Origin: Nitrospirota bacterium
GTDB taxonomy: Bacteria; Nitrospirota; UBA9217
DNA: 64,000 nt
Direction of reading: 5' to 3'
Assembly (NCBI GenBank): GCA_035516965.1
Contig: DATIZR010000021.1
Location: forward strand, 1 to 64,000
Shown here: positions 26,746 through 56,289 of the stretch, piece after piece
Numbering within the stretch: position 1 is the stretch's first letter
Layout of the letters: every line of letters begins with the position of its first letter
Translations under genes and position numbers: made by a program
The notes under the pieces: model-generated
Database searches by the model: none
What the model saw: only the letters and a program-made list of their open reading frames with translations
What the model was told of the DNA's origin: nothing

Positions 26746-27122
26746 TTTATCTCTTCTGTCTGCAAACTGGCCCTTTTGAAATCAAGGTTCTTTACGACAT
26801 CGAGAACGTCAACAAAGGCCTGGAGATGGCTGTTTCTGTCGGCCCTGATGAGAATCGGCGTATCTTTCTGCCTCGCTTTCAGCGAATCTTTTAACCGCTC
26901 CAGGGAGACCTGTTGAGAGTTCAGATATATGTTCCCGCTGACGTCGATCTCGATGGACAGCGTTTTTACGGTCTCCGCCAGGCTCTTCGCTGCCTTGGGA
27001 AGGGCGACCGGCAGCGCACCCGTTGCGATAAAAGTGGACGTCGTCAGCACGATGGTGAGAAGCACAAGCATTACATCAACAAGCGGAATGACATTGATGT
27101 AATCAAACTCTTTCTCGTCCAT
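26742..27122 (-). CDS. exbD: ExbD/TolR-family protein
   Basis: 126 aa. Single membrane helix near the N-terminus preceded by the conserved Asp-containing motif INVIPLVDVMLVLLTIVL (Asp at about residue 16), then a periplasmic domain ending VLDVVKNLDFKRASLQTE. The proton-conducting Asp is present. It overlaps exbB by 20 bp and tonB by 4 bp, so these three genes are translationally coupled. Confidence 0.95.
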   Translation of the reverse strand: MDEKEFDYINVIPLVDVMLVLLTIVLTTSTFIATGALPVALPKAAKSLAETVKTLSIEIDVSGNIYLNSQQVSLERLKDSLKARQKDTPILIRADRNSHLQAFVDVLDVVKNLDFKRASLQTEEIK

Positions 27123-27537
27123 TTTGTATCTCCCATTGCATCATAAGGACTTTTGCCCTTCTCACCAGAAGGTTATAAAGCACGACGGAGGGGATGGCGA
27201 CAAGCAGGCCCGCTGCGGTGGCCTTCAGGGCTACGGAAAGACCAACCATGATCTTCCCGGAATCCATGAGTCCCTCTTTCCCCATGGTATAAAAGGTGAG
27301 CATGATGCCAAGCACCGTGCCGAGCAGCCCGACGTAGGGAGCATTGCTTCCTATGGTTGCAATAAAGTGAAGCTTCTCGGTAAGCACTAGTTCCAGGCTC
27401 TTGATATCGCGGTACTGGCCTATTTTCACCTTCTTGAATACCATATGCCTTTCAATAGCTATTGCGACGGCAATAACACTGAGAAGCACCATTAACCCAA
27501 TGATTCCATAATCTATAGTGACCCTGAGCCATTCCAT
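27103..27537 (-). CDS. exbB: ExbB/TolQ/MotA-family proton channel (short form)
   Basis: 144 aa, start behind GGGGGAG. It has an N-terminal helix (about 12-28), then the MotA/ExbB core with two helices: IATIGSNAPYVGLLGTVLGIM (about 58-82) and ALKATAAGLLVAIPSVVLYNLL (about 103-125). Shorter than E. coli ExbB because the large cytoplasmic loop is reduced, as in many Geobacter-type TonB clusters. First gene of the exbB-exbD-tonB unit. Confidence 0.93.
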   Translation of the reverse strand: MEWLRVTIDYGIIGLMVLLSVIAVAIAIERHMVFKKVKIGQYRDIKSLELVLTEKLHFIATIGSNAPYVGLLGTVLGIMLTFYTMGKEGLMDSGKIMVGLSVALKATAAGLLVAIPSVVLYNLLVRRAKVLMMQWEIQNGRERV

Positions 27538-27791
27538 TTTTTTTCACACTCCCCCGCGAACTTTTCAGCAAAATCATCAATAATGGCGGCATAGGTGGAT
27601 GGGATCACGAGCGCCCCCAAAATTGGCTTTTCATCTATCCGGTCCCGGTGCAGATTCTTAAAACACCAGTGTCATAGAGAGCTTGACGGAGCGCGGCTCC
27701 CGCCTTCAGTGCATAAAATCAGCGACCGCTGCCGAGTTGAAAACTCCAAAGGTCATCCGCTTTCAACACGCCTTTGCGTGGACACAGACCG
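27538..27791. other. 254-bp gap between the receptor and exbB
   Basis: No intact gene. On the minus strand a short frame (about 27655-27540, lacking a start codon) reads LGALVIPSTYAAIIDDFAEK and runs into the exbB start; it may be the tail of a lost small gene. The part near 27700-27790 on the minus strand (GACCTTTGGAGTTTTCAACT) weakly resembles the dispersed repeat at 420 and 2800. Confidence 0.35.
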
Positions 27792-31568: not shown

Positions 31569-34500
31569 TCAGAATCGCTGGTAAACAACGGGCGCAAAGT
31601 TGATTCTCACGTTCGACGGGTTGCTGAACTGAAGCGGGATGCTGATCGACTGCCCGGGGGCTAGCGACTGGCCGGTCGTGCCGATGTACGGAAAACCGTT
31701 GTACATGCCGGCTCCGTTTGCCAGTATGACACCGGAGGTCAGGTTGTTCAGCACCACGTTCAGCGGGACGGACACGGTCGATGAACTGATATTGGTGACG
31801 GTCATGGTGCCCGTGGACACCCGTGCCGCGCGGCTGTAGCTGAACCCTGTGGTGGTCACGCTGAACTGCGAAGATACATCGACGGGCGAGTTGATGGTCA
31901 TGGTACTGGATGCGCTTCCATGATAGTCGACATCGTTTATGAAGGCTGCGACCGAGTACGTACCCGGAGCGACAGGAGCGGTCGTTGAACCGTTGTAGGT
32001 TACCGTGATGGGAAGCCCTGCCGGGTCGGTCGCGACCGTGACGCTCCTGGGCGCGCCATTATAGCTAAAGTCCATGCTCCCGAAGAGAACAGTGGCCTCC
32101 GCTTTGGCAACGGTCAGGGTGCCGCTGGCCAGTACCGTATTCCCGGTCTGAGCTGCCTTTGCCTCTACCGCATACGTCCCGGCCGAGATCGGCCCGGCGG
32201 AGTCTCCGTTGTAGGTCACGCTTACCGGAATGCCGTCCGGAATGGTGAAGACGGTGACCTGCTTCGGCGAAGCATCGAATTTCTGATACACCCCTTCGAG
32301 CGAGACGATCGGGTAATAGGCGGGAGTGTCGGTATAGTGCGTTGCTGCCGGGGCCGCGGCCGGAGCGGGTTCGACATTGTTGTTGCTGTCCGTGGCTAAG
32401 CTGTAGAACTCGTAGTAGCCCGAGCCTTGCGGGAAGCCGAAGGCCGCCGTGTACGGAGCTGCCGTGGCAGTGGAGACCGGTGTCCACGCGCCCCAGGATG
32501 CGTTGTCCGTTGAATAGCGGTAGAAGAACTGCACCTGCGTGACCGACGTTCCGCCCGATTGCATCGTCACCTGGAGCACCGGAGCGTTGCTCCCATACTC
32601 CTTTGAGTCGAACCCGTAGCTCGGCGCCGTTGCGTCAGCCGCCCCCTCGGTGACCGGTTTGACGACGAGCGAGACCAGTTTGTTGGCGGCCCATTTCCCC
32701 TGGACGAAGGGGGTGACGTTCCAGTTGTACCAAAGGTTGGCGGTGGCTGCCGCAAGGGTCTGCGTATCGAGCGCCGCAGCGCCTAAAGCCGGCTGGGTGT
32801 TCCAGGTGATGCCGGTCTCCGTCCAGGTGTCATCGCTGCCGCCCCGCACCTCGGCCGGCAGTGCCGCTCCCGTGGCCTTCCAGTCCCAGAGCTGAAGGGA
32901 AGCGCCGGATATCGTTGCTCCGCTCGGGATGCCGGAGAGGTCGAATTTCAGCCAGGCCCGCTCGTTCCCATAGGAATTCATGCTGCTGCTCTGTATGTAG
33001 AGGTTGGTTGTGTTGTAGTTCGTTGTCGGTTTGCCGCTGGCCACCTGTGCGTCGGCGACCGGTGCGAGGTAGTACGTTCCATTGGTGACGGAGGCGGTGG
33101 CGCTCAGGGTAAGAGACGATCCGGTCGTCCCGGCCGGTATCGGATCGAGGCGGGACGAAACAGCGGAGACCGACGGCAGCTGAGCTGTGGTGGTCGCGGC
33201 GCTGTCGCAGCGGAAGCGCAGCCCGTAGCTCTCCATGGTGGGCACGCCCGAGATGAGGAGCGTGTCGCCCACGTTCCCCGGGAGGGTCTTTGCGGCATAG
33301 CCGGTCACGTCCATGATCGAAAGAGTCTGCCCGTTCTGATCGGTCACCGTGCCCGGTCCCGCCTTTTTCGCCAGGAACTGCACATAGTGGTTCTTGTAAG
33401 AGTCATTCCAGAACGCGCCGATGGACGACAGGAAGGCAGGCTTAGCGAGGCTTTCGTCGTGGCCTGCGATCCTGAACTCGACGCCGTCGGCATAGATCCC
33501 CTCCTGGTCCACGAATTCGGGATTGCCGCCGTAGAAGCTCCCCTTTCCCCAGGTCTCGATGATGTCACCCGGCCTGAGGGCGCCGGTCTTGAACCCGAGG
33601 TAGCTGCGGTAAAGCTCCTGCTCGGCCAGGCGGTTGGCGGCGTTTATGGTGCCGTCTTCATTGACGAGGTCGGCAGGAACCTGATTGCTTCCGCGGCGCG
33701 CCAGGGTCTCCGGGGTGGCGCTGAGGAGGCGGATGAATGCGTACTCATAAACCGGTTTGGTATCGTTGTCGTTCATCATCGTGACCACGGCGCGGTATCC
33801 GCCGGAGAACTCGGTGTTCAGATGGTAGCGCGGACCGCCGACACGGTAGGGGTTGCCGGCGGTGAACTGCCGCATGTAGTCCACAATGCCGTCGCGGCAG
33901 AGGACGCTTGAGGAAAGCGGGGCCGTGTCCGACCAGGTCCAGCCGGTTGGTGGATGAGCGTACATGTAGTTATTGATGGCCACCGTATAGGTGTGGTTCA
34001 GGTCGATAGGCTGGCCGTTGAACTTGACCGAGGTCGGGATGCCGTCAAAAGCAGTCACGTCCAAAGCGCTTGAGAACCCGGCATCCATGGTGGTTGCTTT
34101 CAGGAAATTGATGATCTCCTGGCCGGTCATGTTGACCCGGGTGAACGTATCGTCGTTCCAGGGGAACGTTTCGTAGATCTGCATATAGGTCACCGGGCCG
34201 GCAGGAATATCGGCGCGCACGCCGCCCCCCGCCTCCATGGCGAGGTCACACTGGCCGAATAGCTGCTCAGCCTTCCATTGCATGGCGTCGCAGATCCACT
34301 GGCCGGCGGTGTTGTTGCCGCTCCAGGGATACTCGTCGGCCGACCACCATTTCATGGTGTTATCCAGCATCAGGTTGTCCGCAGTGTAGCCGATCACTTC
34401 GTCGACCGGGTGACCGGGATGCGCAGTATTGTATTGCGCGGTCAGGCCTTCGATCAGGGTCTGCGTATCAGGATCGGGGGTAAGATCGGCGTCTCGAATC

Positions 34501-36791
34501 ACATGCTGGGCCGATCCGGCGTAGCTGCCCGTGTCGGTCAATCGCAGCTCGCCGATGTACTTCATATAGCTGGCCGACTCCGTGAAGATCGTCTTGTAGT
34601 TGAGCATTGACGGCTGCCACACGGTGTCGGCCCAGCTGTGCCAGTGCCCGGTCACGACCGCTTCCGGAAGCTTTGCCGCGCCGTCATCGACGAGCAGCGG
34701 CGCTGCCGGATCGACGAGCGCGCTGTGGCCTATGTGAGCGGCGAGAATCACAATATTACACCCCTGATTATTGCGCAGTTCGTTCACGTAGTCGGCCAGA
34801 TGGATCTTGGTGGCGTCGGTGCTGCTCCAATCGCAGGCGTCTACCTCAAGCGTGTTGGACAGCGAGGCCCCCACCTCGGATTCGGAGGTGGTATACCCGA
34901 GAATGCCGACCTTCGTGCCGCCGATGGTTACGATGTTGTACGGGGGGAAGAAGGGCTGGTGCGTCATCACGTCCCTGACGTTCACGGAAATCACCGGCAC
35001 CCCCGAATTTTGGAGAGCGACCATGTTACTAATGTAAGACGCGTCTCGGACGTCGTGATTGCCGACGACCACCGCATCCATGCCGCGACCGCGCTGTTTC
35101 TGAAGTTTTGCCGAGAGCATGGTATAGAACTGCGTCATGGCGCCGTTGCCGTTCATGTCGCCGATCGGGTTCCCCTCGGAGATATCCCCCGCGTCGATCA
35201 CGAGAGAATTGGGCTGCTCAGCCGTGAGCTGCAGCATCTCGGAGGCCAGGTACGCTGCGCCGCCTACATCTTCGAATGCAGGTGGATTGGTACCGTGCTC
35301 GGTCACGATCCATTTGTGAGGCGTGACGCGCGCGTGAGTATCGTTCACATGGAAGATGGTGAAACTTCCGGTAAAGTTGGCCGTGACGGTCTGGCTGACG
35401 GCGATGCCGGTTACAGTGAGAGGATTTGCCGCGCTCGTCACGAACCCGTTGGTCCCGGTCCAGTTGGTGAAGAAGTAGCTGCTGTTTGCCTTCGCGGTTA
35501 CGGGAGACGCCGATGCGCCGTAATCGACGGTCTGCGTCGCGGACCCGGTGAGCGTGCCGTGGCCGTCCGTCGTAAAGGTTACGGTATAGGTCTGGATCGC
35601 GGCCGAACAGCTCGCTGCGTTCCCGCCGTTGCTCCCTGTGCATGTCCAGCTCCAGGGATGGCCGCTTCCGACGACAGCCGAAGGAGAGCCGATTGAGCAG
35701 AGGTTAGCCGGGGCCGTAGCCGCCAGAGTCTGGCCGTTGTCCGCGCCGCAGGCGCCGTTGATTGGCGTGGCGGTGAAGTTTGCAGTGATGGTCTGGCTGG
35801 TTGTGACATTGCTTACCGTCAGCGGGTTTGACGTTGAAGTGACGAAGCCGTTGGTCCCGGTCCAGTTCAGGAAGGAATACCCGCCGTTGCCCGATGCCGT
35901 GACCGGTACGGTGGAACCGCCGTAGTCAATGGTCTGCGAAGTCGTCCCACTTACGGTGCCATGGCCGTCGGTGCCGAAGGTGAGGGTGTAGGTCTGGATC
36001 GTGGCCAAACAAGCAGCAGTGCTGCCGCCGTACAGCCCGCTGCAGTTCCAGGTCCAGGGGTGGCCGTTGCCGCTGATTGCCGAGGCATTTCCTGCGGAGC
36101 AGAGGTTGACCGGTGCTGTTGCCGCCAGGCTCTGGTTGTTGTCCGTGCCGCAGACGCCGTTGACCGGCGCCACACAATAGGTATACGCCGATGCACTATT
36201 GCGAGGATTCGGCGCTCCTGCTGTGAAGTCGGCATTGTTGTTGTCCGTATCGCTGCAGCCGTTGCCCGCCCGCAGCACTGCTGTCGTGTTGCTGGGAGCC
36301 GGCGTCGGGCCGCTCCCCTCAAAATTGTTGGCTGTTGTACCAAAACCGACATAGTCCCGGACCGCAGCATTTGTGGCGCAGTTGCTGCCGCAGGAAAGAG
36401 CGGTCGTGCTGGTCACCAGCGCTACCTTGCCGGCAGTGGCGCTCATATTTATGATGCCTGTCGCGTCCGGAGCCGGCAGATTCACTGTCCCGCCGGTTCC
36501 TGCCGCTTCCTGAACCAAGTAATGCTGCCCCGGCTGAATAATGCCGCTGAGGTTGGTCACCTGCCAGCTCGTCCCCGTTGCCGACGCGTACTGGACAGAC
36601 CAGCCGTTGAGGCTGACCGGTAGCGAACCGAGATTGAACAGCTCGATGAAGTCATTTTTGTAAGTTGCCCCGCTGTTCCCGCCCCCGCCGTAAACCTGGC
36701 TGATGACGATGTCGGGCGAGGCGGAAAAACCGGCCACCGGGACGATAAAAGCGAAGAACAGCGTGACGATGAAGCCAAGTATCCTTTTCAT
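31569..36791 (-). CDS. Giant secreted 5'-nucleotidase with LTD, InlB-type, DNRLRE and MBG-type domains
   Basis: 1740 aa, start behind AGGAGG. Order: signal peptide (1-24); lamin-tail domain (about 25-150: DIVISQVYGGGGN, DFIELFN); two tandem repeats of a cysteine-containing plus InlB-type module (214-341, 348-474); 5'-nucleotidase catalytic domain from about 478 with the binuclear metal motifs HVNDTHA, DAGDISEGN, VVGNHDV, AAHIGHS and TGHWHSW; 5'-nucleotidase C-terminal domain (about 800-1000); a mixed region; a DNRLRE/CBM96-like domain (about 1240-1410); MBG-like repeats (about 1510-1640); and a C-terminal beta domain (1640-1740) shared with two other phosphatases here. Role: extracellular release of phosphate from nucleotides. 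No VPLPA tail. Confidence 0.9.
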   Translation of the reverse strand: MKRILGFIVTLFFAFIVPVAGFSASPDIVISQVYGGGGNSGATYKNDFIELFNLGSLPVSLNGWSVQYASATGTSWQVTNLSGIIQPGQHYLVQEAAGTGGTVNLPAPDATGIINMSATAGKVALVTSTTALSCGSNCATNAAVRDYVGFGTTANNFEGSGPTPAPSNTTAVLRAGNGCSDTDNNNADFTAGAPNPRNSASAYTYCVAPVNGVCGTDNNQSLAATAPVNLCSAGNASAISGNGHPWTWNCSGLYGGSTAACLATIQTYTLTFGTDGHGTVSGTTSQTIDYGGSTVPVTASGNGGYSFLNWTGTNGFVTSTSNPLTVSNVTTSQTITANFTATPINGACGADNGQTLAATAPANLCSIGSPSAVVGSGHPWSWTCTGSNGGNAASCSAAIQTYTVTFTTDGHGTLTGSATQTVDYGASASPVTAKANSSYFFTNWTGTNGFVTSAANPLTVTGIAVSQTVTANFTGSFTIFHVNDTHARVTPHKWIVTEHGTNPPAFEDVGGAAYLASEMLQLTAEQPNSLVIDAGDISEGNPIGDMNGNGAMTQFYTMLSAKLQKQRGRGMDAVVVGNHDVRDASYISNMVALQNSGVPVISVNVRDVMTHQPFFPPYNIVTIGGTKVGILGYTTSESEVGASLSNTLEVDACDWSSTDATKIHLADYVNELRNNQGCNIVILAAHIGHSALVDPAAPLLVDDGAAKLPEAVVTGHWHSWADTVWQPSMLNYKTIFTESASYMKYIGELRLTDTGSYAGSAQHVIRDADLTPDPDTQTLIEGLTAQYNTAHPGHPVDEVIGYTADNLMLDNTMKWWSADEYPWSGNNTAGQWICDAMQWKAEQLFGQCDLAMEAGGGVRADIPAGPVTYMQIYETFPWNDDTFTRVNMTGQEIINFLKATTMDAGFSSALDVTAFDGIPTSVKFNGQPIDLNHTYTVAINNYMYAHPPTGWTWSDTAPLSSSVLCRDGIVDYMRQFTAGNPYRVGGPRYHLNTEFSGGYRAVVTMMNDNDTKPVYEYAFIRLLSATPETLARRGSNQVPADLVNEDGTINAANRLAEQELYRSYLGFKTGALRPGDIIETWGKGSFYGGNPEFVDQEGIYADGVEFRIAGHDESLAKPAFLSSIGAFWNDSYKNHYVQFLAKKAGPGTVTDQNGQTLSIMDVTGYAAKTLPGNVGDTLLISGVPTMESYGLRFRCDSAATTTAQLPSVSAVSSRLDPIPAGTTGSSLTLSATASVTNGTYYLAPVADAQVASGKPTTNYNTTNLYIQSSSMNSYGNERAWLKFDLSGIPSGATISGASLQLWDWKATGAALPAEVRGGSDDTWTETGITWNTQPALGAAALDTQTLAAATANLWYNWNVTPFVQGKWAANKLVSLVVKPVTEGAADATAPSYGFDSKEYGSNAPVLQVTMQSGGTSVTQVQFFYRYSTDNASWGAWTPVSTATAAPYTAAFGFPQGSGYYEFYSLATDSNNNVEPAPAAAPAATHYTDTPAYYPIVSLEGVYQKFDASPKQVTVFTIPDGIPVSVTYNGDSAGPISAGTYAVEAKAAQTGNTVLASGTLTVAKAEATVLFGSMDFSYNGAPRSVTVATDPAGLPITVTYNGSTTAPVAPGTYSVAAFINDVDYHGSASSTMTINSPVDVSSQFSVTTTGFSYSRAARVSTGTMTVTNISSSTVSVPLNVVLNNLTSGVILANGAGMYNGFPYIGTTGQSLAPGQSISIPLQFSNPSNVRINFAPVVYQRF
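35370..36152 (-). repeat. Tandem duplication of a 128-residue module within the 5'-nucleotidase gene
   Basis: Residues 214-341 and 348-474 align throughout (CGTDNNQSLAATAPVNLCS versus CGADNGQTLAATAPANLCS; GHPWTWNC versus GHPWSWTC; NWTGTNGFVTS in both). Each unit joins a four-Cys 'GHPW' segment to a divergent InlB-type segment. The DNA remains similar enough to suggest relatively recent duplication. Confidence 0.85.
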
Positions 36792-36944
36792 AATGCCTCC
36801 TGAAAATGGATGTATCCGTGAATTCTCATTAAGAGCAGAGGATCAGGGCGGGGGTAAAACGCGTTGATCGCAGAAGAACGCCGCTTCACCCGCCCCCTGG
36901 CCCCCTCTCACCGGTGAGGATTAATGGGACAGGGAAAACCTTAA

Positions 36945-36968
36945 AATACGGGGGGCCCGAAGGCCCCC
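36945..36968 (-). terminator. Hairpin after the broken VPLPA-CTERM gene
   Basis: GGGGGCC-CGAA-GGCCCCC stem-loop (36951-36968) 28 bp past the stop at 36996. On the minus strand it is followed by GTATTTT, a weak T-run. Likely intrinsic terminator or attenuator between the phosphatase operon and the 5'-nucleotidase gene. Confidence 0.55.
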
Positions 36969-36995
36969 AAAACTTCATCGTTCCTTATTCGCCAA

Positions 36996-37357
36996 TCATG
37001 CGGCCATCCTTCTGCGGATGCCCGCAAGGCCCATCAGCCCGGAGCCGAGCAGCCAGGCGACTGCCGGGATCGGGGTCGGGGTAACATTCGCCTGAGACGC
37101 CATGATATTCGTGGTTGCTGCCCCATTATCGCTCAAATCAACTGTGAAGAGCGTTCCATCCGCGGTCATCAGAGGGTTAATGCCCGAGTCGTCAGCGAAC
37201 AACCCGAGGGAAAAGTACTCGTGCCTGTGGACCCGCTGTTAGGCGTGTTCGCCAGAGCCAAGCTGAAGCTCAGGCTATTGCCGAAATGGATCGCTTGGTA
37301 GAACGCAACGGTCCCTACTCCTGCATTTCTGCCCGGCATGCGGAAGGAGAAGGTCAA
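36996..37357 (-). pseudogene. Frameshifted, 5'-truncated VPLPA-CTERM protein
   Basis: Two overlapping minus-strand frames together give the C-terminal half of a protein homologous to the intact one at 39488: VAFYQAIHFGNSLSFSLALA in one frame (to about 37215), then LFADDSGINPLMTADGTLFT and the tail TPIPAVAWLLGSGLMGLAG-IRRRMAA in the next. Restoring one T in the T-run near 37212-37215 would join them. The N-terminal half, including any signal peptide, is missing; the homologous part begins directly at the stop of the histidine phosphatase (37354). A sequencing error in the T-run cannot be excluded for the frameshift, but not for the missing 5' part. Confidence 0.75.
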
Positions 37358-39315
37358 TTTGAAACATGATTGTAGCAGGCCGTCAGCCTACCGTAGTCGT
37401 AGTAGTGGCTGCCGGGGGCATACCGGGCTTGATCGCAGTCAGCTTTGAAGTCGGCTTCCTTTTCGTTGTAAAGCATCTTGACCAACAGCGTTCCGGCCCC
37501 GTTGCTGTAAACATCCCACTGCACATTGGCAGCGTACGGCGAGACGATTGCTCCGCGCCAGGGATTGGTGTTGTAGCTGTAGTTGCTGGCGTTGGGGACC
37601 TGCACGAAAACGTTCTTCAGCCCCAGAATGGAAGCGAGGGGCATGATCTCTTCTCCGTGAGTGAAGCGGAGCTTGGCGCCGTGGGAGAAATCTCCCTTGG
37701 CGACGGCGTCCACCTCATTGAACAAGTCATTTATGAGGAGCTGCGCCATCCGGAAGGTGGAAGATCCGTCCTCAGCGATCCCGGGGCCCTTCTGATAGAA
37801 GCTCTGTACGTCGTCCAGATACGACAGGACGCTCGCCTGAGCGGCAGGGATGTACTTCGAAAAATCCATATTGTTGAGTTCGTTCTGCATCGCCGGTGCG
37901 GTGGCATAGAAAGAGTACAGCTCGTTTGCGGCGTCCGAGAGGCTCTGCACCGTTGTGCTGCCATCGCCTGAAACCGTCGTCGAGTAGCTGCCGTCGCTCG
38001 TGGTGAATATGTAGCTGCCGGAATTGGTGAAAGTGTAGGTTCCATTGTCGATCTTGTCCACGAAATCCTTTGTGAACAGCATTTCCAGCACGGCGCGTGC
38101 GTTGGCAGCTGCATCCGGATCAGTCAGAATGCTATTGACCTTGGCGACCATGTTCGCATTCTTGAGGTATGCCTGATAAGTCAGGCTGTCCTGGTAGGTC
38201 TGGTAATAAGGGTCACTGGCGCTGTTCACCAGGTCGGTTTTCGCAGCGAGCTTGTGAAAATAGAGCAGGAAACGGTTCACCCCTGCCGCCTGGGCCACCG
38301 GTTTGTTCGACGGATAGGCGGTAAGGGGAGCTGACTTCAAGATCAGAGGTCCCAGGGATGGATTGTTGGTCAAGAGGGACAGAGCGAAGAAACCTGCGCT
38401 GTCCGCTGCACGGTTCACTCCGGAATTGACCATGACGATCTGGCGATTGCTTGCGGGGAGCTGGGCGAAATAGGAGGGCAGCCTCTGCAGGAGCCGTGCT
38501 GCGATCTGCTGCTCTTCCATAATGCCGGTCTGGCTCAGATTGCCGTAGCCGGGAGCGGTAATCCCTGCAACGCCGACGTCTAAAAGCGCATTTGCCTGCA
38601 TCATGGTCATAACATCCGGACCGAGCTGGGCTCCGAGGGGAGTGAGGGCGCCATCTGCGGCTGCCTTAAGATACATGTTGTAAACAGTCCCGTCGAAACT
38701 GGATTGGCCGCGCGACCCGTGCCGCACCACCGCTTCGGTGAAGACAGGAGTGAAACCGGCCGGCTCTGCCTCGTAACTTGCCGCGTTTTGCTGCGGCTGG
38801 TAAGGAGTGGCGGTTGTCAGATAGGCGTTTGGCCCCACCTGGTAGATCAACGCAGAGAAGCCGATAAGCGCATTGGATGGGTTGCTGAACTGAAGGGGAA
38901 AGCTGATCGAACCACCAGACAAGAGTGACAGGTTTTGATAGACATAGGGGAATCCGTTGTATTGTCCGCTGGCATTGGACAGAGTTACGCCGGAGGAGAG
39001 ATTGTTCAGTGATACGGCTATCGGCCCGGTGATCGGATTCGTACCGGGGTTTGTGACGGTCATCGTGCCGGTGTACAGTTTGGATGCCCGGCTGTAAATG
39101 AACCCTGTCGTTGAAACGAGGACCTGTGGTGTAATGTCGGTTAGCTGGGACGCGGTGATGGCGGTTCCCGCAGGATTCAGATTCTGTGCATGGCCGTAAG
39201 GTTCGAAAAAGGCAACCTGAAAGGCAGTGCAGATTGAAAAGATTATTGCTACGAAAGCAACCCTGCTGACGGAGGGGTTGTCAGGCAACTTGCAGGTTTT
39301 TGTCAATGTATGCAT
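37354..39315 (-). CDS. Secreted histidine acid phosphatase (MINPP/phytase-like, branch 2)
   Basis: 653 aa, start behind CAGGAGAATAA. Signal peptide about residues 18-43. Residues 65-160 are the beta-rich domain shared with the 5'-nucleotidase C-terminus and the purple-acid-phosphatase-like protein. The catalytic domain follows: phosphate-binding RHGSR at 198-202, the second Arg region NSGVNRAADSAGFF (about 305-318) and the proton donor motif HGEEIMPLASILGL (about 583). The C-terminal Cys pair region (DCDQARY, YDYGRLTACY) matches MINPP-type ends, so the gene is complete. Expected to remove phosphate from inositol phosphates or other organic phosphates outside the cell. Confidence 0.85.
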   Translation of the reverse strand: MHTLTKTCKLPDNPSVSRVAFVAIIFSICTAFQVAFFEPYGHAQNLNPAGTAITASQLTDITPQVLVSTTGFIYSRASKLYTGTMTVTNPGTNPITGPIAVSLNNLSSGVTLSNASGQYNGFPYVYQNLSLLSGGSISFPLQFSNPSNALIGFSALIYQVGPNAYLTTATPYQPQQNAASYEAEPAGFTPVFTEAVVRHGSRGQSSFDGTVYNMYLKAAADGALTPLGAQLGPDVMTMMQANALLDVGVAGITAPGYGNLSQTGIMEEQQIAARLLQRLPSYFAQLPASNRQIVMVNSGVNRAADSAGFFALSLLTNNPSLGPLILKSAPLTAYPSNKPVAQAAGVNRFLLYFHKLAAKTDLVNSASDPYYQTYQDSLTYQAYLKNANMVAKVNSILTDPDAAANARAVLEMLFTKDFVDKIDNGTYTFTNSGSYIFTTSDGSYSTTVSGDGSTTVQSLSDAANELYSFYATAPAMQNELNNMDFSKYIPAAQASVLSYLDDVQSFYQKGPGIAEDGSSTFRMAQLLINDLFNEVDAVAKGDFSHGAKLRFTHGEEIMPLASILGLKNVFVQVPNASNYSYNTNPWRGAIVSPYAANVQWDVYSNGAGTLLVKMLYNEKEADFKADCDQARYAPGSHYYDYGRLTACYNHVSN

Positions 39316-39376
39316 TTATTCTCCTGAACGGGGTATGTTCGGAATGCCGGTTTTGTCTATTCACTTTTTTAAAAGG

Positions 39377-39415
39377 CCCCCTCTCCGGACAAGATGTACT
39401 CTGCCGGAGAGAGGG
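39377..39415 (-). terminator. Intercistronic hairpin, possible partial terminator
   Basis: CTCTCCGG ... CCGGAGAG stem (39381-39411) flanked by T-runs on both strands; it lies between the VPLPA-CTERM gene stop (39488) and the phosphatase start (39315). It could reduce readthrough between the two. Confidence 0.5.
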
Positions 39416-39487
39416 AAGATGTTTTTTCTCCTATGCCTTCACCTTTCTACGAAGGCCCCCAAAAGTTCACCGTTCCTTCTTCATCAA

Positions 39488-40075
39488 TTACGCGGCCATC
39501 CTTCTGCGGATGCCCGCAAGGCCCATCAGCCCGGAGCCAAGCAGCCAGGCGGCTGCCGGGATCGGGGTCGCAGCCACGGCAACCTGGCTGCTCAGGTTGT
39601 TCACAACAGCACCGTTTGCATTCAGGTCAACGGTGGTTGCGAAACCATTCGTCGAATCGTTCGTGAGCAGCGGCGTGAAGCCATCTGCTCCGTAAAAGGA
39701 CAGCGCGAACGAGTTATGAGCGCTTCCGGACAGATTGAGAGCAAACTGGACACTGCTGCCGAAGGTGATCTGCTGATAGTAGTCGTTCCATCCGGTGGTG
39801 TTGCTGATCGTTACCGCCCCGGGGAGCGCGCCTGTGACAGCGCCCGTTACTTGCTGGGAACCGGCGGCAAGCGTTGCATCGGAAGTGAAGTTTGAAATGA
39901 CGGCGCTGGCCACGCCCGGATTGAGCCCCGGGTTGAACTGGAGCTCCAGATACCCGGTTTGACCGGAAACGGACGATGTGTTCACGTCGAAATTGTAGGA
40001 ATAATCCGCGAAGGCCGACGTGGCTGCAAACATGATCACCGCAAAGACGAGAAGTTTGACAATATGACGTTTCAT
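39488..40075 (-). CDS. VPLPA-CTERM (PEP-CTERM-type) exported protein
   Basis: 195 aa from the ATG at 40075 behind TAGGAG. Signal peptide residues 1-23 (ending AFA), a beta-rich body without Cys, and the sorting tail: TPIPAAAW motif, hydrophobic helix LLGSGLMGLAG and basic end IRRRMAA. This is the VPLPA variant recognised by XrtD-type exosortases, and such an enzyme is encoded at 53744. The mature body should be cleaved and anchored or released at the surface. The ribosome site overlaps the stop of the upstream purple-acid-phosphatase-like gene, so the two are coupled. Confidence 0.92.
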   Translation of the reverse strand: MKRHIVKLLVFAVIMFAATSAFADYSYNFDVNTSSVSGQTGYLELQFNPGLNPGVASAVISNFTSDATLAAGSQQVTGAVTGALPGAVTISNTTGWNDYYQQITFGSSVQFALNLSGSAHNSFALSFYGADGFTPLLTNDSTNGFATTVDLNANGAVVNNLSSQVAVAATPIPAAAWLLGSGLMGLAGIRRRMAA

Positions 40076-40085
40076 TTTATTTCTC

Positions 40086-41798
40086 CTATTCCTGTAACAC
40101 GACAGGGTTAAATGTGATTGTGGCGTTAGCCGGGTTGCTGAACTGCAGCGGCACGGTGATCGAAGCTCCGGAAGCAAGACCGTTGGCCGAAACCTGTATC
40201 ATCGGTTCGCCGTTGTTCGAGCCCGTTGCATTGACCAGTGTGACATTCGCGATAAGGCCGGGATCACTGCTTCCTTTTCCCGTGGCCGGTTTATTGGCGA
40301 TTTTCGAAGTAAGTTTCGGGGTGGTCGTGCTGTACTGGTTATCTGCGTTGCCGATCCCCTGGAGGTTAAGGATGCCGTCCAGGACAACGTGGACGTTGCC
40401 GGTGAGGTCGGGGCCGTTATTGGTGATGGTCAGGTTGCCTGCATAAAGCTTGGTGGCACGGCTGTAAAGGAAACCGGTGCTTGTCGCGCTGACCTGCGGC
40501 GAGACGTTGGTGAAGTGGTTCAGGACGATCGTCTCGATCGGTGAAAGGGTCAACGTCGCTGCCGACTGAATAGCGGTCGTGCTCACGTTATTGACCTGGT
40601 AGGAAGTCATCGTGAGGGTTTTCCCCTCCACGTCGAAGGTCATGAATTCGAAAGCCGGCCAGGCCGTGATAACGTGCGGATAGCTCCCCGCATTTGTCAT
40701 ATCGGGCTGATACACAGGCGCGCCGCCGCCGCCGCTAGTGATGTGCGGCACGTTCAGGGCAATCTGGTCACCGTTTGCCTGGGCGAGGGTATAGGCCCCG
40801 GTGCGGGCATAGTTGTGGCTGTGTCCGCAGTAGATCAGGTCCACACCATACTGGGTGACGAGGGGTTCGAGCACCCTCACGTTGCTGTTGTCGCCATCGC
40901 TGCCCGCGGAATAGGCTGGTTCGTGGTAGATCATGATCTTCCACGGCTTTGTGGTTGAGGCGAGGTCATTGACGACCCAGTTGTACTGGGCGGAGCCAGC
41001 AGCAAGGTTCGAGTAGTTGTCAACAACGGTGAAGTGGACCGGGCCGTAATCAAATGACCAGTACAGGTTATTGTACGCCTGGACCGTAGCCGGGTCGAAA
41101 ACAGGGGTTGCGTTCTGATAAGGGAAGGGGAAATACTTGGGGAAGTAGGTGCTCTTCCCGTTGGGGTAGCTTCCGCTGTTGTCGTGGTTGCCTTTGCACC
41201 CATTGATGGGCGTATTCGCCGTGAACGCGACGACGTCAATCTTGGTCGGGTCGAACCACTGGGACGTCCAGTAGCTTTCTCCGTCGGTGCTCACCCAGTC
41301 CCCATTGTGAATAACCAAGCGCTGATAGTCTTCGTTGCCCGGCTGTGAATAAAAGCTCTTCATCGCCTGCATCAAGTTATCCAGGGCAAAGGGTTGGCTC
41401 CTTGAGTCCCCCATGCCGAGGAACCGTATCGCCGTTACGCTGTTGTCGGGCGCGGTGATGAATGATCCGGCTCCGTAGAGGCCGTTGGTCTGGTCAGCCA
41501 CCTGATAGTAGTATTTCGTATTCGGCGTCAGACCGGCGATCGTATAGGCGTGCTGATTGGCGCTTCCGTACTCGGGTACCGTTACTGTCCCCATGCTGTA
41601 GGTCGTGTCGGGGCCCCAGCTGAGCACGTTCGTTGCCTCGCTGGCGTTGTCCTGCCAGAGGATCTGCATCTGAGTATTCTGCCCCGGGTAGATCATATAG
41701 GGGTGTTTCAGAATGCCGGCGAAGGCCGCCGTGCTGAACACGGTAATGGCCAGCACGAAGACCAGGCCGGACAATGCCTTTTTCGTCATGGTATTCAT
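40086..41798 (-). CDS. Secreted purple-acid-phosphatase-like metallophosphoesterase
   Basis: 570 aa; the ATG at 41798 follows AAGGAGAAGAG and is preferred to 41849. Signal peptide residues 1-28. N-terminal fibronectin-III-like domain as in purple acid phosphatases (about 30-125), then the metallophosphatase domain with GMGDSR, HNGDWV, GCKGNHD, MIYHEPAYS and GHSHNYARTG. The last 140 residues form the beta domain shared with the two other phosphatases, here with an approximately 40-residue insertion (around ANKPATGKGSSDP). Some PAP tyrosine/histidine ligands differ, so the exact metal pair is uncertain. First gene of a unit with the VPLPA-CTERM gene. Confidence 0.88.
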   Translation of the reverse strand: MNTMTKKALSGLVFVLAITVFSTAAFAGILKHPYMIYPGQNTQMQILWQDNASEATNVLSWGPDTTYSMGTVTVPEYGSANQHAYTIAGLTPNTKYYYQVADQTNGLYGAGSFITAPDNSVTAIRFLGMGDSRSQPFALDNLMQAMKSFYSQPGNEDYQRLVIHNGDWVSTDGESYWTSQWFDPTKIDVVAFTANTPINGCKGNHDNSGSYPNGKSTYFPKYFPFPYQNATPVFDPATVQAYNNLYWSFDYGPVHFTVVDNYSNLAAGSAQYNWVVNDLASTTKPWKIMIYHEPAYSAGSDGDNSNVRVLEPLVTQYGVDLIYCGHSHNYARTGAYTLAQANGDQIALNVPHITSGGGGAPVYQPDMTNAGSYPHVITAWPAFEFMTFDVEGKTLTMTSYQVNNVSTTAIQSAATLTLSPIETIVLNHFTNVSPQVSATSTGFLYSRATKLYAGNLTITNNGPDLTGNVHVVLDGILNLQGIGNADNQYSTTTPKLTSKIANKPATGKGSSDPGLIANVTLVNATGSNNGEPMIQVSANGLASGASITVPLQFSNPANATITFNPVVLQE

Positions 41799-41940
41799 CT
41801 CTTCTCCTTTTTGTTTAAAAGTAATGCTGCCGGTTGTGACTCTTCTCACCCTTCTAAATTTCTTAATTAACTATTATTTCACCTCCTTTTCGCTTGCTGT
41901 CCAGCAGTTAAAGACAACTACCGCTGCTGAATGCATTGTT

Positions 41941-42483
41941 CTATTGATCCAGGTCTACCTGTTTTGCGTCCGTCAACAATGCGTTATCCAGGTTTGTCTC
42001 GCTCATGTCCGCCCCGTTCAGGTTCGCTCCGTCCAGGTTCGCCCAACTCAGGTTCGCCCCTTTCAGGTTTGCCTTGCTCAGGTTTGTCCCTTTCAGGTCT
42101 GCCTTGCTCAGGTCCACTCCACTAAGGTCCTGCCCCTCCAGATTCACTCCGCTCAGGTTCGTCCCGCTCAGGTTCGCCCCGCTCAGGTCCGTCCCGCTCA
42201 GGTTCGCCCCGCTCAGGTCCGTCCCATTCAGGTTTGCCCCGTCCACGTCCGCCCCTTTCAGGTTCGCCCCTTTCAGGTTCGCTTTGCTCAGGTCCGCCCC
42301 GTTCAGGTCCCGCCCCTCCAGGTTAATCCCGTTCAGGTCCGCCCCGCTCAGGTCGCACTGGGGACATTGATTGGTTGCCCTCAATCTATCCAGATCAGCC
42401 TGCTCGAAACCGTACACGACACCGCCCATTAGAAAAACGCAAAGGGTGGTCATCCCCAGCAGTGCTGCAGTCCTTCTCTTCAT
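41941..42483 (-). CDS. Exported pentapeptide-repeat protein
   Basis: 180 aa, start behind GAGGAG. Signal peptide about 1-24 (VVYG), a short segment with CPQC, then roughly 25 consecutive A(D/N)LXX pentapeptides (about 43-170; ADLNG, ANLKG, TDLSG, ANLSG) that should fold into a right-handed quadrilateral beta-helix. The central position is almost always Leu. Pentapeptide proteins in the cytoplasm mimic DNA or act in resistance; an exported one more likely serves as a structural rod or binding surface. It is the first gene after the c-di-GMP riboswitch leader (42634-42750), and the phosphatase genes follow 140 bp downstream. Confidence 0.92.
   Translation of the reverse strand: MKRRTAALLGMTTLCVFLMGGVVYGFEQADLDRLRATNQCPQCDLSGADLNGINLEGRDLNGADLSKANLKGANLKGADVDGANLNGTDLSGANLSGTDLSGANLSGTNLSGVNLEGQDLSGVDLSKADLKGTNLSKANLKGANLSWANLDGANLNGADMSETNLDNALLTDAKQVDLDQ
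42005..42350 (-). repeat. 15-bp tandem DNA repeats of the pentapeptide coding region
   Basis: On the plus strand the unit CAGGTTCGCCCCGCT recurs with period 15 and slight variation about 23 times. The sequence is so regular that blocks near 42155-42215 are almost identical. Prone to slippage. Confidence 0.9.
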
Positions 42484-42633
42484 TTTTCTGTCTCCTCATC
42501 GAATGGAATGACTGTTTTACTAAGAGATATTTAGTTGCATATTTGTACCGCACGAATTACATCACAGTTCCTGCCGCCCTCTATTTCACCCCCTTCTCTT
42601 TGGGATGCCGCTTAGCCCTCACGAAGCGAACAT

Positions 42634-42677
42634 AAAAAAAGCCGGGTGCTCTCTCCTGAGAGAAAGGGCAACCCGGC
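42634..42677 (-). terminator. Riboswitch expression-platform terminator
   Basis: Minus strand: GCCGGGTTGCCC...GAGAGCACCCGGC followed by TTTTTTT. Its 5' arm (42664-42677) is the 3' strand of the riboswitch aptamer, so the two structures exclude each other. Ligand binding would be expected to prevent termination. Confidence 0.8.
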
Positions 42678-42752
42678 TATCCTCATGGGACCCGTGGCTT
42701 TCCGTCCCCATCTTGCGATGGGTTTGGCTGTAACGGCCAAGCAGTTTGCTGT
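42664..42752 (-). promoter_or_regulatory. Cyclic-di-GMP-I (GEMM) riboswitch
   Basis: Reading leftward: AGCCAAACC, stem CCCATC-GCAA-GATGGG closed by a GNRA tetraloop, then GGACGGAAAGCC, ACGGGTCCC, and GGATAGCCGGGTTGCC. This is the order of the GEMM-I consensus (GCAAACC, GNRA loop stem, GGACGCAAAGCC, tetraloop-receptor arm, TAGCCGGGTTGCC). It leads into the terminator at 42634 and then the pentapeptide-repeat gene. One consensus position (C of ACGCAAAG) is G here. Predicted to turn transcription on when c-di-GMP is high. Confidence 0.85.
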
Positions 42753-42815
42753 GTTTGCAATCCGCTCAATATATTGACTATTTGTTTGCCGATCAGGCAA
42801 ACCTCAGATTTCCTG

Positions 42816-42854
42816 AAACAAAAAAAGCCCGCCACGAAAGGATTCGCGGCGGGC
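42816..42854 (-). terminator. Strong terminator upstream of the riboswitch
   Basis: GCCCGCC(GCGAATCCTTTCG)TGGCGGGC hairpin at 42827-42854 followed on the minus strand by TTTTTTTG. It lies 284 nt past the acid-phosphatase stop at 43138 and 100 nt ahead of the riboswitch. It ends either the acid-phosphatase transcript or a separate structured leader (42860-42960). Confidence 0.85.
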
Positions 42855-42965
42855 TTCAAGGTACCCCGATCAGGGGCCAAAAAGTACCCTACGATTACGT
42901 CAGGAATAACTGTCCGGATGGAGAGCGTTACTTCCAACCGGGCAAGAGTACCTCACGACGAAGAA
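42855..42965 (-). other. Structured leader-like RNA segment of unknown type
   Basis: Minus strand contains the stems GAGGTACTC, CCGGTTGGA/TCCATCCGG and GGCCCC-TGAT-CGGGG followed by the terminator at 42827. I find no match to the GEMM core or another riboswitch I know. No gene starts between it and the GEMM element, so with the terminators the two would form a tandem leader. Confidence 0.3.
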
Positions 42966-43006
42966 AGCGTACTATTTACTTCTTTTCACCACTTTATTAT
43001 TCGTAC

Positions 43007-43034
43007 GTTACAATTTGATGAAAGGATGGTTACT
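43007..43034 (-). promoter_or_regulatory. Possible Pho box upstream of the structured leader
   Basis: Minus strand AGTAAC (43034), TTTCAT (43023) and TGTAAC (43012) lie 11 bp apart each. Two of the three units deviate from TGTAAY. Position fits control of the pentapeptide/phosphatase transcript. Confidence 0.35.
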
Positions 43035-43137
43035 TTCCTGTGAATATTTGGTAATCGTCGCATCGTCAGGAAAAGGCTTCTCCAATATTTTCAATTACTC
43101 ATAAAAACATCACTGCACATGATTTGAGCTTTGCGTC

Positions 43138-44529
43138 TTAGCGTGCCGGCGACGACAGCGGAGCCGATGCCAGGTCGAGGGCATTAGTCAGGTCGTTTGC
43201 CGCTGCGTCGCGCGAGCCCAAGGGCATCAGATTCCATCGGCGTTCGATAAGCTTCAGAATAGATGTCGTGTCGTACTCTGTGTGATCGACAAACCCTTTC
43301 TTGGCAAAGGGAGATATGATGATTGCAGGCACTCTCGCGCCAGGTCCCCAACGGTCACTCTTCGGAGGGGCCACATGGTCCCACCGGCCGCCGTTCTCGT
43401 CATAGGTGATGATGATCACGCTGTCGTTCCAATAAGGGCTTTCCTGCACGGCCTTGACGAGTTCCGCCACGTGCTGCTGGCCGAAAAGGAGCGCGGCATA
43501 CCCGGGATGTTCGTTGTAGGAGCCGTTCGGCTTGATGAAGGTCACCGAGGCCAATGCGCCTTTTTTCAGGTCCGTGATAAATTCCTTCTCGTCCTTGAGA
43601 TGCGTTGCCTTGGCCGGTGTGTTGTCGGCGAAATTTGCGAAATAGGCAAAAGGCTGGTGATGGAACTGAAAATCTCCGGCCGGTTTTCCGGCGAGGGCGT
43701 CGTTCCATCCGCCGGAATACCATGTCCAGGAAACGCTCTTCGCCGATAGCAGGTCTCCGATTGTCGGCTGGGTCTGAAGGGGGACAAGGTCCTTTGCGCT
43801 GTCCGGGTGAGGCTGGTTTACGGAGTAGGCGGTATTGACCACGAAGCCGTCAGGCGTTACGGCGCCGTCTTTTTCAAGGACCCCCTTCAGATCGAGTTTT
43901 ACTCTCATCGAGGTCGGCGCGTCAGGCCAGACCGGTGTGCAGGCGCAGACAAGCCAAAAATGGTTTAAAAACGAGCCGCCGAAGGCCGCCTGAAAGAAAT
44001 TGTCGGCGATCGTGTATTGCTTAGCCAGCCTTCCCTCGGGCAGGTCGCTGGCATCAACATAGCTCATGACGAGTCCGGGATTGTCGCTCCAGGCCGCGAA
44101 CTTGTCCATTTTGCCTCCATCGATCTGGAGCTGATTCTGGTAGAAGCGATGCACGAGGTCCCCTGTTTTTTCGTTCCAGGGAACATATTGGGCCAGATCG
44201 TACGGCTTTGCCGGCATCTGCTCTGGAAAACGAAGGTCATCCACGGGAGGCTTCAGACTGGTGTCCAACGGCCGCTTGAGAGTTTTCAGCGGCTTGCCCT
44301 CCTTGTCCACCTGATTCACCGCATCTCCCGCATTCGCGAGACCGTTCGCGCCGGGAAACTTGCCGTAAAGGCCGTCAAAGCTCCAGTTCTCCTGGTAGAT
44401 GACGATGACATGATTGATTTTCGACTGGAGCGCATCCGTTTTTGGGTCCGCGGCTTGCACGAACCGTGTGCAAAAAATCAGCGCCGCAGACAATGCAATA
44501 ACCCTTGCGTAGCGATAGAAATTGGGCAT
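43138..44529 (-). CDS. Secreted acid phosphatase / phospholipase C-type phosphoesterase (AcpA-like)
   Basis: 463 aa, start behind AAGGAGGACGAG. Signal peptide 1-26 (VQA). Phosphoesterase family PF04185 signatures: NHVIVIYQENWSFDGLYG near residue 40 (the E-N pair that binds metal/nucleophile region), FGGSFLNHFWLVCACTP (about 190), and the C-terminal metal site TYDENGGRWDHVAPP followed by GPGARVPAIIISPFAKKG. Francisella AcpA and PlcC belong here; substrates range from phosphomonoesters to phospholipids. Fourth phosphohydrolase of the cluster, encoded upstream of the riboswitch in a separate transcription unit. Confidence 0.9.
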   Translation of the reverse strand: MPNFYRYARVIALSAALIFCTRFVQAADPKTDALQSKINHVIVIYQENWSFDGLYGKFPGANGLANAGDAVNQVDKEGKPLKTLKRPLDTSLKPPVDDLRFPEQMPAKPYDLAQYVPWNEKTGDLVHRFYQNQLQIDGGKMDKFAAWSDNPGLVMSYVDASDLPEGRLAKQYTIADNFFQAAFGGSFLNHFWLVCACTPVWPDAPTSMRVKLDLKGVLEKDGAVTPDGFVVNTAYSVNQPHPDSAKDLVPLQTQPTIGDLLSAKSVSWTWYSGGWNDALAGKPAGDFQFHHQPFAYFANFADNTPAKATHLKDEKEFITDLKKGALASVTFIKPNGSYNEHPGYAALLFGQQHVAELVKAVQESPYWNDSVIIITYDENGGRWDHVAPPKSDRWGPGARVPAIIISPFAKKGFVDHTEYDTTSILKLIERRWNLMPLGSRDAAANDLTNALDLASAPLSSPAR

Positions 44530-51971: not shown

Positions 51972-52099
51972 GTTCCACGCCTCCCTTTTTCCACGGCCGG
52001 GAACTAAGCCCCCTGCCATTGTTCACGATTATCGGCCCGGCTTCGCGCGAGCCGGACCGTATCACTCCCCGGAGAGGGCCCGCCTGCCGGAAGCCCTTC

Positions 52100-53743: not shown

Positions 53744-55321
53744 TTATTGCTGCAAGCTCTTTCCCGGGATATACCCATCCAGCACCGGCACGATCTCCCT
53801 CGTGAACGACTGCAAACGATTCTCGGCATCCTCTAGCCGTTCAGATGGATACACTGGCGTTATCACCCGCACCAATGCCCCGTCCGCTCGCTGCTTTGTC
53901 AAAGAATCCCAGAATGCGTATAGTTTCAGCTGGTAAAGCTTCGTGAGAGTGCGCCCTCGCTGAGGGAACCAGTAATAGGCGAGCTCCCGCACTCCTGTTT
54001 TCTCTATAAATGCCCTGTTCACAGGCAGGGAGGATTTACCGTCAGCAAGGGAAACCGCAGCGTCGCCTTCCTCAATAAATGTCCAGCCTCCCATGGGAAG
54101 GCACGTTTCGGGCGAATGGATTGCCTCACCCTTGCGCTGATCCTGGTAATAGGCCACATAAAAATTTATAGACTTGCTCTGCGGATCGGTGAAGTTCGCA
54201 ATGATGTAGTCGCTGAACATCAATGCATCGCGGAACTGCTGTTCCATGTTTTCACGCGCTCCCTTCCATTCCCCCACCTGCAGGGGGAACTGGCTGAGGG
54301 GCTTGCCGATCGCAACGTGTTGCCGAAATTCTATGGCATGAGAAAGTCCGGCCGTAAGCAAGAGAACCGCCATACTCACTATCAATGGGGGCTGCAAAAA
54401 TGCTTTGTCATTCTTTGTCTTTTCAAACCGATCGGCATCTTCACCGGCAGACACCTGCGCGGCTCTTCCGCCCTTCTCTTTCGGCGGCAATTTTTTCAAC
54501 ACAAACATCTCGAGCAGAAAAACCGGTAAGGAAGCCATAAAAACAAGCCAGCCGGAAAAGCCGTGAAAAAAGCCTTCCGCTGCTGACGCCCCAAGCACGC
54601 TGTACAAAATGCCGGTTAGCGCGATTCTGAAACTGTTCAAGAGAATGGAGAGCGGCAGGGACGAAAGGAACAGTGCCGTTCTTTTCCAGATATGAGCTTT
54701 AAACCAGTAAGCAAGCAGGAGGCCGAAAAGCATCATCGGCAAGATATACCGCAGACCGCTGCAGGCGTCGACGACCTGAAGAAGGGTGAACCCGAGGTCG
54801 ATGATGTTTCCTTCGCGATATGCGGACATTCCAGCCATATGAAGCATCCAAACCCCTAATTGCGACGAAATCATTTTGGCCCAAACGGTGACCCGCGTGT
54901 AGATAAAATTAGGGAGGGGAAACATGGCCAGCATCACCATGAATGCGAACGCAATAATTCGCATCTTTCGCCAGCCGATATGGAGCCAGACGATACCGAT
55001 GATGACAAACCAGAGCGACAGATACAGAGTCGTGTATTCTCCGCCGAGTTCTCCCAACCAGTAAAACAGTACGCCCACGCCCAGCGGCGCCAGCCCCTGC
55101 CAGGAGGGGGCCGAGACAAGCCTGGCAAGCTCGACCCGTTTTTCCCAGATGATATAGAGCGCGACGAAAGGAATAAACCAGCAGTATGAGTACTCCTCGC
55201 CTGACCAAGCCGAGATCATTTGTTTGAATGTGGAATAATAAACGAGGAGGATAACAGAGGCATACAGTCCTGCTTTAAGCCAGCTCTCCGGTCTGATCGT
55301 GGTACCTTCAAAAACTTTCAA
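53744..55321 (-). CDS. xrtD: XrtD-type exosortase fused to EpsI
   Basis: 525 aa from a TTG at 55321, 9 nt after GGGGAGG; a TTG at 55339 has no ribosome site. The N-terminal 270 residues are the eight-helix exosortase with the catalytic Cys in VDACSGLRYILP (about 187), the Arg in LLNSFRIALTG (about 232) and the His in FFHGFSGW (about 253). A basic linker leads to a further helix and an EpsI domain with HSPETCLPMGGW. The fusion is the usual form of XrtD, which processes VPLPA-CTERM tails. Two such tails occur in this window. It lies upstream of the WecA-like gene inside the EPS operon. Confidence 0.92.
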   Translation of the reverse strand: MKVFEGTTIRPESWLKAGLYASVILLVYYSTFKQMISAWSGEEYSYCWFIPFVALYIIWEKRVELARLVSAPSWQGLAPLGVGVLFYWLGELGGEYTTLYLSLWFVIIGIVWLHIGWRKMRIIAFAFMVMLAMFPLPNFIYTRVTVWAKMISSQLGVWMLHMAGMSAYREGNIIDLGFTLLQVVDACSGLRYILPMMLFGLLLAYWFKAHIWKRTALFLSSLPLSILLNSFRIALTGILYSVLGASAAEGFFHGFSGWLVFMASLPVFLLEMFVLKKLPPKEKGGRAAQVSAGEDADRFEKTKNDKAFLQPPLIVSMAVLLLTAGLSHAIEFRQHVAIGKPLSQFPLQVGEWKGARENMEQQFRDALMFSDYIIANFTDPQSKSINFYVAYYQDQRKGEAIHSPETCLPMGGWTFIEEGDAAVSLADGKSSLPVNRAFIEKTGVRELAYYWFPQRGRTLTKLYQLKLYAFWDSLTKQRADGALVRVITPVYPSERLEDAENRLQSFTREIVPVLDGYIPGKSLQQ

Positions 55322-55491
55322 TGTTCCGTTCCTCCCCAAATGCGTCCTATTCTTGCTCAGCTCTCTCTCTGGACCATCCTGAGAGGAGGCGCTGGAGTCG
55401 TTCCCGCTTCTTGTTCAGCGCCTCTTCCTCCGTTATAACCTTTCAGCATCCGGCACTCCCCCGCCCTTTACGAGCAATAACATCTCCCTAG
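55322..55491. other. 170-bp gap between exosortase and glycosyltransferase genes
   Basis: On the minus strand an imperfect GAGGCGCTG/CAGCGCCTC inverted repeat (about 55386-55431) without a T-run; the same stretch can be read as a short charged helix (EEEALNKKRERLQRLLSG) but lacks a start codon. Probably a breakpoint between the conserved export block and the variable sugar-gene block. Confidence 0.35.
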
Positions 55492-56250: not shown

Positions 56251-56289
56251 AGTGCGATTCGAAACGGCAGGAAGCTTTAAGGAGCAGCA

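Follow-up and report, generated by a model that had tools for sequence, protein, structure and literature searches.

We analyzed a 64,000-nucleotide stretch (the window) of a Nitrospirota genome (assembly GCA_035516965.1, contig DATIZR010000021.1) that holds an island of secreted phosphohydrolases, and we found that three of these enzymes share an extra domain of approximately 100 residues, here called X. Across several phyla, genes encoding X lie next to a gene of the PEP-CTERM family NF038129 (NF), and the enzymes concerned are mostly phosphatases. The X tag on three neighboring enzymes together with the adjacent NF genes suggests a common means of surface holding. We put the chances at about even that X and NF form a two-part module in which NF is the exosortase-sorted partner and would keep X-bearing enzymes, most of them phosphate-releasing, at the cell surface or within the matrix. 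The original prediction had read the island as a joint phosphorus-scavenging set of four enzymes; a phosphate-release role of the island is plausible, and the X/NF module, mostly tied to phosphatases, is the stronger finding.

Domain X and its tailed neighbor

X was found by aligning the three enzymes that carry it, a multidomain 5'-nucleotidase (P0001), a phytase-like histidine phosphatase (P0002), and a purple acid phosphatase (PAP; P0003); the original prediction had missed this link among them. A genome-wide search for X (E ≤ 1e-3) returned these three proteins only, and the window's own genome was the only one with X out of 14 from its family. No named domain was matched when X was compared with the Pfam and NCBIfam models.

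The intact NF gene of the window (P0008) begins 10 nt past the PAP stop codon, and its product scores 119.9 bits against NF038129 (cut-off, 65) and 27.4 bits against the VPLPA-CTERM model TIGR03370 (cut-off, 25.35). Where VPLPA-CTERM proteins in the plural had been predicted, P0008 is the one intact gene, and the other is a frame-broken remnant of a second NF gene that follows P0002. The X-enzymes have exported N termini, and P0001, P0002, and P0003 show neither a CTERM match in the Pfam and NCBIfam scans nor a hydrophobic C terminus, and so have no sorting tail of their own. Among the X proteins listed, none of 32 has a strongly hydrophobic C terminus; a proline/hydrophobic/basic tail was recognized by eye on 24 of 25 NF proteins. 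The window also encodes XrtD, the exosortase specific for VPLPA-CTERM proteins, 14 kb from the module and the sole PF09721 match in this genome. With XrtD and the VPLPA-CTERM protein each exceeding the curated cut-off of its model, the window resembles classical PEP-CTERM/exosortase sorting. In that system, a sorted protein bears its own tail, whereas here tail-less enzymes adjoin a tailed protein.

We know of no function for most PEP-CTERM proteins. The NCBIfam description line of NF038129 names no function, and the association of the family with X and phosphatases emerged from this analysis. A literature search, with most subscription journals outside its scope, found no paper naming NF038129, and the titles and abstract openings of work on PEP-CTERM or VPLPA-CTERM proteins with phosphatases or surface anchoring mentioned no system like X/NF. 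In Haft (2006), few PEP-CTERM proteins had any Pfam match.

Pairing, cargo, and possible transfer across genomes

We sampled 395 Nitrospirota genomes, 286 from the class that includes G398 (an Akkermansiaceae bacterium), and 141 from the order that includes G407 (Geomesophilobacter), taking the latter two groups to be Verrucomicrobiae and Geobacterales, respectively. Among the Nitrospirota, X occurs in three genomes, two of them of one genus, and NF exceeds its cut-off in the same three, always adjacent to X. Searching by NF first, at E ≤ 1e-12 in the class and order samples, X was found in a neighboring gene at 18 of 19 NF loci in total (3/3 in Nitrospirota, 9/9 in the class, and 6/7 in the order), including 12 of the 13 loci whose genomes had not contributed to X profile A2. 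NF was found in 8 of the 286 class genomes (nine loci, eight over the cut-off; the G571 locus lies below it yet was counted) and in 7 of the 141 order genomes. NF matches that fell short of the cut-off, those inspected covering mainly the C-terminal tail, were left out of the counts. This applies to the Nitrospirota genomes, of which 125 of 395 match at E ≤ 0.001 and 3 exceed the cut-off, and to the 14 genomes found by X first.

These 14 genomes came from a hand-written X DNA pattern, which hit 14 loci in genome contigs: six in Verrucomicrobia, three in Nitrospirota, two in Geobacterales, two in Acidobacteria, and one in Nitrotoga, as grouped by record title. NF is adjacent at 12 of the 14 loci and over the cut-off in 13 of the genomes; the exceptions are G401, where X is decayed and NF absent, and G403, in which NF lies on a different contig from X. 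The remnant in G401 (UBA9159, Nitrospiraceae; L182, 5132-5314) is of PAP type, and no exosortase was found in that genome. At the Geomesophilobacter locus, NF stands between two X genes, with the pattern-matched one downstream of it and the second one upstream. The two search directions have five genomes in common and together give 27 distinct NF loci, 25 of which have X adjacent. All 23 X/NF pairs measured share a strand, and the spacing from the X gene to the NF start is -11 to 205 nt. At E ≤ 1.1e-20, X is present in nine class-of-G398 genomes, eight of which have NF. From these counts, NF predicts X almost always; a broadly defined X, in turn, need not be accompanied by NF.

As a control, we took 44 loci, each of approximately 3 kb, surrounding other PEP-CTERM genes; they contained no X and no matches to 11 cargo phosphatases. 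Plasmid searches gave one distant relative, from Methylomonas, with X near the N terminus; an earlier version of the DNA pattern found no loci in viral contigs, and two scans for related loci with the first X profile yielded no confirmed locus. Distances among X sequences and among NF sequences correlate (rho = 0.68 over 24 loci, reached in 0 of 5,000 permutations; 0.64 when restricted to the 258 pairs that differ in cargo), which is not decisive, because physical linkage alone would give the same.

The genes directly upstream of NF are biased toward phosphoesterases at loci that were selected by X or NF and never by cargo. Phosphoesterases make up 20 of 26 such genes, 17 of 23 with three near-duplicate pairs collapsed, and 19 of the 25 outside the window. 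They comprise three PAPs (window, L159, and L169), one PhoA, two PhoD, three PhoD-AcpA double enzymes, five PhoX-type enzymes (four assigned by 46 to 49% identity to the single Pfam-matched one), one AcpA-like protein (assigned by 37% identity to a Pfam-matched protein), two calcineurin-like proteins, two ExeM-like nucleases from Nitrospira (one Pfam-scanned and below the ExeM cut-off, the other assigned by near-identity), and one 5'-nucleotidase upstream of the G700 NF, which is the cargo without X. The count omits X genes not immediately upstream of NF (P0001, L159_48, L160_4, and L175_33), P0002 (downstream NF broken), L172_24 (stop in the X gene), L053 (contig end), L180 and L185 (no NF), and L186 (weak NF, upstream). 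It also omits the G403 NF, whose neighboring gene was not identified; including it gives 20 of 27.

In the three double enzymes, phosphatases of PhoD and AcpA type are fused before one X (L163, 5007-9305; L164, 4961-9127; L172, 7270-11172). A Nitrospira ExeM-like nuclease (L010, 7185-10280) and P0001 have a similar N-terminal lamin-tail domain, with X at the other end.

The shared X and the phosphoesterase bias upstream of NF make the joint phosphate-release role of the original prediction likelier for P0001, P0002, and P0003. The fourth enzyme, the AcpA-type P0005, lacks X and lies beyond a terminator-like hairpin.

In Geomesophilobacter sediminis (L159), genes for PAP-X, NF, and 5'-nucleotidase-X stand in a row in the same order as in the window, with identities of 59%, 55%, and 66%, respectively (the last over 1,724 aligned amino acids of P0001). 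In the window, unlike in Geomesophilobacter, NF and 5'-nucleotidase-X are separated by the phytase-like gene and the broken NF, and neither a histidine phosphatase nor AcpA was found in the 19.9-kb L159 stretch. The conserved neighborhood proposed as a check of the island is therefore seen for this row and not for the four-enzyme set. This synteny, together with the absence of X from the other 13 family genomes searched, suggests, from sequence comparison, horizontal transfer of the module.

Proposed in-trans display and competing explanations

X is appended to exported, mostly phosphate-releasing enzymes of many unrelated families, and we propose that the NF protein encoded beside the X-enzyme would supply the sorting tail that the enzymes lack. 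Since NF bears this tail, an exosortase (here XrtD) would process it toward the outer surface and the exopolysaccharide. X would dock the enzyme onto NF, or onto the matrix holding NF. Several X-enzymes, in the window the 5'-nucleotidase, the phytase-like enzyme, and the PAP, would be kept at the surface, where freed phosphate may remain near the cell. Anchoring in trans is favored because the X-enzymes are exported without a tail, NF is tailed, and an exosortase is mostly present (26 of 29 genomes carrying X or NF). In its fullest form, with X as a docking tag, NF as the sorted receptor, and a chiefly phosphatase, surface phosphate-harvesting complex that occurs in at least four phylum-level groups and has partly spread horizontally, we hold the proposal only tentatively, as somewhat short of an even chance.

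The arrangement recalls, by analogy, the cohesin-dockerin system of the cellulosome, in which a small tag on many enzymes meets a separate, surface-attached partner. It differs in that X is a beta-sandwich of approximately 100 residues rather than a calcium-binding dockerin, that the cargo is mainly phosphatases, and that binding between tag and partner is here a proposal. If true, one PEP-CTERM family would be a receptor for tagged phosphatases, giving it a function and a test. Such a receptor could account for the retention of phosphatases on the surface of these cells, and surface enzymes overlooked by annotation could readily be spotted by their X.

Several observations weigh against in-trans display. 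Six of the 26 cargos are not phosphoesterases (a glycoside hydrolase of family GH5, a glycoside hydrolase-like protein, MBG, LamG, a subtilase, and X alone). At a loose E ≤ 1e-6, X occurs in 27 of the 286 class-of-G398 genomes, and 19 of these lack NF (E ≤ 1e-12): one is G580, where X is matched at 1.1e-20 in an AcpA-like protein, and the other 18 have weaker X matches, none better than 5e-17. Genome G408 has extra X copies away from its NF, two NF genes have no adjacent X (those of G700 and of G403), and control locus L103 holds an NF-like gene fragment of 38 bits. The NF partner at L179 has no sorting tail, and no exosortase was seen in 3 of the 29 genomes with X or NF. Exosortases are also common generally, in 84 of the 141 genomes in the order of G407, where 7 of 8 genomes with X or NF have one; their distribution fits a dependence of the module on exosortase without being proof of it. 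A single-chain X-linker-NF model, built on a shallow, unpaired alignment, reached a predicted template-modeling score of 0.53, the fold being good for X and moderate for NF (predicted local distance difference test [pLDDT], block values of approximately 70 to 89), and therefore gives no support for an interface; a fold search with this two-domain model returned nothing informative for the NF half. A phosphorus-supply use draws no support from Pho boxes: by an enterobacterial consensus only, the window holds 6 Pho-box-like sites versus 4.6 expected, and a Pho box at P ≤ 0.05 was found in none of 25 regions upstream of X genes, one further region being too short.

The structure of X bears on the first and main alternative, that X is a divergent carbohydrate-binding module (CBM) binding exopolysaccharide directly and that NF is a separate, co-produced matrix protein with no contact to X, which we consider unlikely. 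An AlphaFold2 model of the P0002 X domain (pLDDT, 95.3) is an all-beta beta-sandwich, and the closest solved structures are CBM2-type and chitinase-borne modules at Z scores of 8.7 to 9.0, little above the level that common arrangements reach (the top two, 9.0 and 8.8, over 91 to 92 residues). Foldseek gave a TM score of 0.64, with no match reaching an E value of 0.001. The proximity of the window's module to an exopolysaccharide/exosortase cluster would also suit direct binding. The possible fold likeness to CBM2 is, however, not accompanied by a sequence match: two X sequences scanned had no Pfam CBM match at E ≤ 1, and the X profile gave nothing convincing and no CBM2 chain among PDB sequences at E ≤ 1. 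CBM2 modules typically carry tryptophans, but 17 X sequences have zero or one tryptophan each and none that is conserved. Direct binding to exopolysaccharide would also leave unexplained why NF is so seldom found without an adjacent X.

X-like domains without NF are one point in favor of a second alternative, in line with the original prediction: an ordinary phosphorus-scavenging cluster of independent enzymes, gathered by a common role, in which X is a generic immunoglobulin-like spacer and NF an incidental neighbor. Of 14 such proteins viewed, from several sets, 8 carry X ahead of another C-terminal stretch, and the island's substrate range also looks broad (nucleotides, phytate-like compounds, and phosphomonoesters). 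NF-paired X, in contrast, is not interdomain but ends 0 to 5 residues from the protein C terminus in 23 of 23 pairs measured, and X adjoins NF at all but two of the distinct NF loci; we regard this alternative as improbable. Among X-like proteins, those of L128 (by Pfam, as for L185) and L129 (by eye) are AcpA-like. At L131 to L136, L144, and L148, the X-like domain is followed by a C-terminal stretch of approximately 95 residues with a recurring QWID-G-PKT...YR motif, possibly a second C-terminal domain without a name.

The tight gene order and the terminal position of X would equally suit an export or folding signal, with NF escorting X-tagged enzymes as their own chaperone or carrier instead of anchoring them lastingly. 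The exosortase sorting tail on NF and the N-terminal X of P0002 and L186 speak against this third explanation, to which we attach very little probability. In-trans display remains the reading that we prefer.

Layout and regulation of the island

As predicted, four secreted phosphohydrolases are encoded on one strand of the island (Table 1), with family matches and signal-peptide-like N termini, judged by eye, for all four; the predicted pentapeptide-repeat protein is likewise confirmed by a family match. The claim of four unrelated folds does not hold: PF00149, the calcineurin-like family, is matched by both P0001 and P0003, leaving three superfamilies.

Table 1. Features of the phosphohydrolase island and the associated exosortase, in window coordinates
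Feature	Position	Strand	Remarks
P0001, secreted multidomain 5'-nucleotidase, 1,740 amino acids	31569..36791	-	Metallophos and 5_nucleotid_C; PDB 5'-nucleotidases matched
X of P0001	31572..31883	-	C-terminal
Terminator-like hairpin	36951..36968	-	Between NF remnant and P0001; consensus match only
Frame-broken remnant of second NF038129 VPLPA-CTERM gene	~36996..37381	-	27.2 bits to NF038129, below cut-off; follows P0002
P0002, histidine phosphatase of MINPP/phytase type	37354..39315	-	His_Phos_2; N-terminal X
X of P0002	38836..39141	-	N-terminal, after signal peptide
P0008, NF038129-family VPLPA-CTERM protein, 195 residues	39488..40075	-	Proposed surface partner
P0003, PAP	40086..41849	-	Pur_ac_phosph_N (PF16656) and Metallophos (PF00149), over cut-off; C-terminal X
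X of P0003	40089..40511	-	C-terminal; 39-column insertion
P0004, secreted pentapeptide-repeat protein	41941..42483	-	Family match; no module link shown
Terminator-like hairpin	42824..42857	-	After P0005; consensus match only
P0005, secreted AcpA-type acid phosphatase	43138..44529	-	Without X; Phosphoesterase (PF04185); TIGR03397, 467.4 bits (cut-off, 362.75)
XrtD, VPLPA-CTERM-specific exosortase	53744..55339	-	EpsI-type C terminus; TIGR04152, 591.6 bits (cut-off, 400)

P0001 comprises a lamin-tail domain (LTD), two InlB-like repeats, the Metallophos and 5_nucleotid_C domains, a CBM96/DNRLRE domain, two MBG domains, and the C-terminal X. Phytases of the multiple inositol-polyphosphate phosphatase (MINPP) type have the catalytic motifs RHGxRxP and HAE. 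The best PDB match of P0002 is such an enzyme (7zgf; E = 9.9e-68), and the aligned motifs are RHGSRGQ and HGE in P0002 versus RHGSRTP and HAE in 7zgf; the histidine, arginine, and glutamate are retained, and two motif residues differ. The motifs GNHD and GHSH are present in P0003, for which the true start is perhaps the ATG at 41798.

Because terminator-like hairpins interrupt the cluster, the island is probably not one operon, although such sites are no commoner in the region than in shuffled sequences (11 found versus a mean of 15.9). RpoN sites searched for in the window did not exceed chance expectation.

Genes for TonB, ExbD, ExbB, and a TonB-dependent receptor follow the island closely on its downstream side, at 26011-29972. 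P0001 is adjoined by a gene for a membrane protein of unknown function (P0006; 30280-31398), a 49% identical relative of which is encoded near PAP-X/NF in L169 (9804-11000), from the order of Geomesophilobacter. Over the exopolysaccharide/exosortase cluster (52000-64000), the G+C content drops from approximately 58% to 43%.

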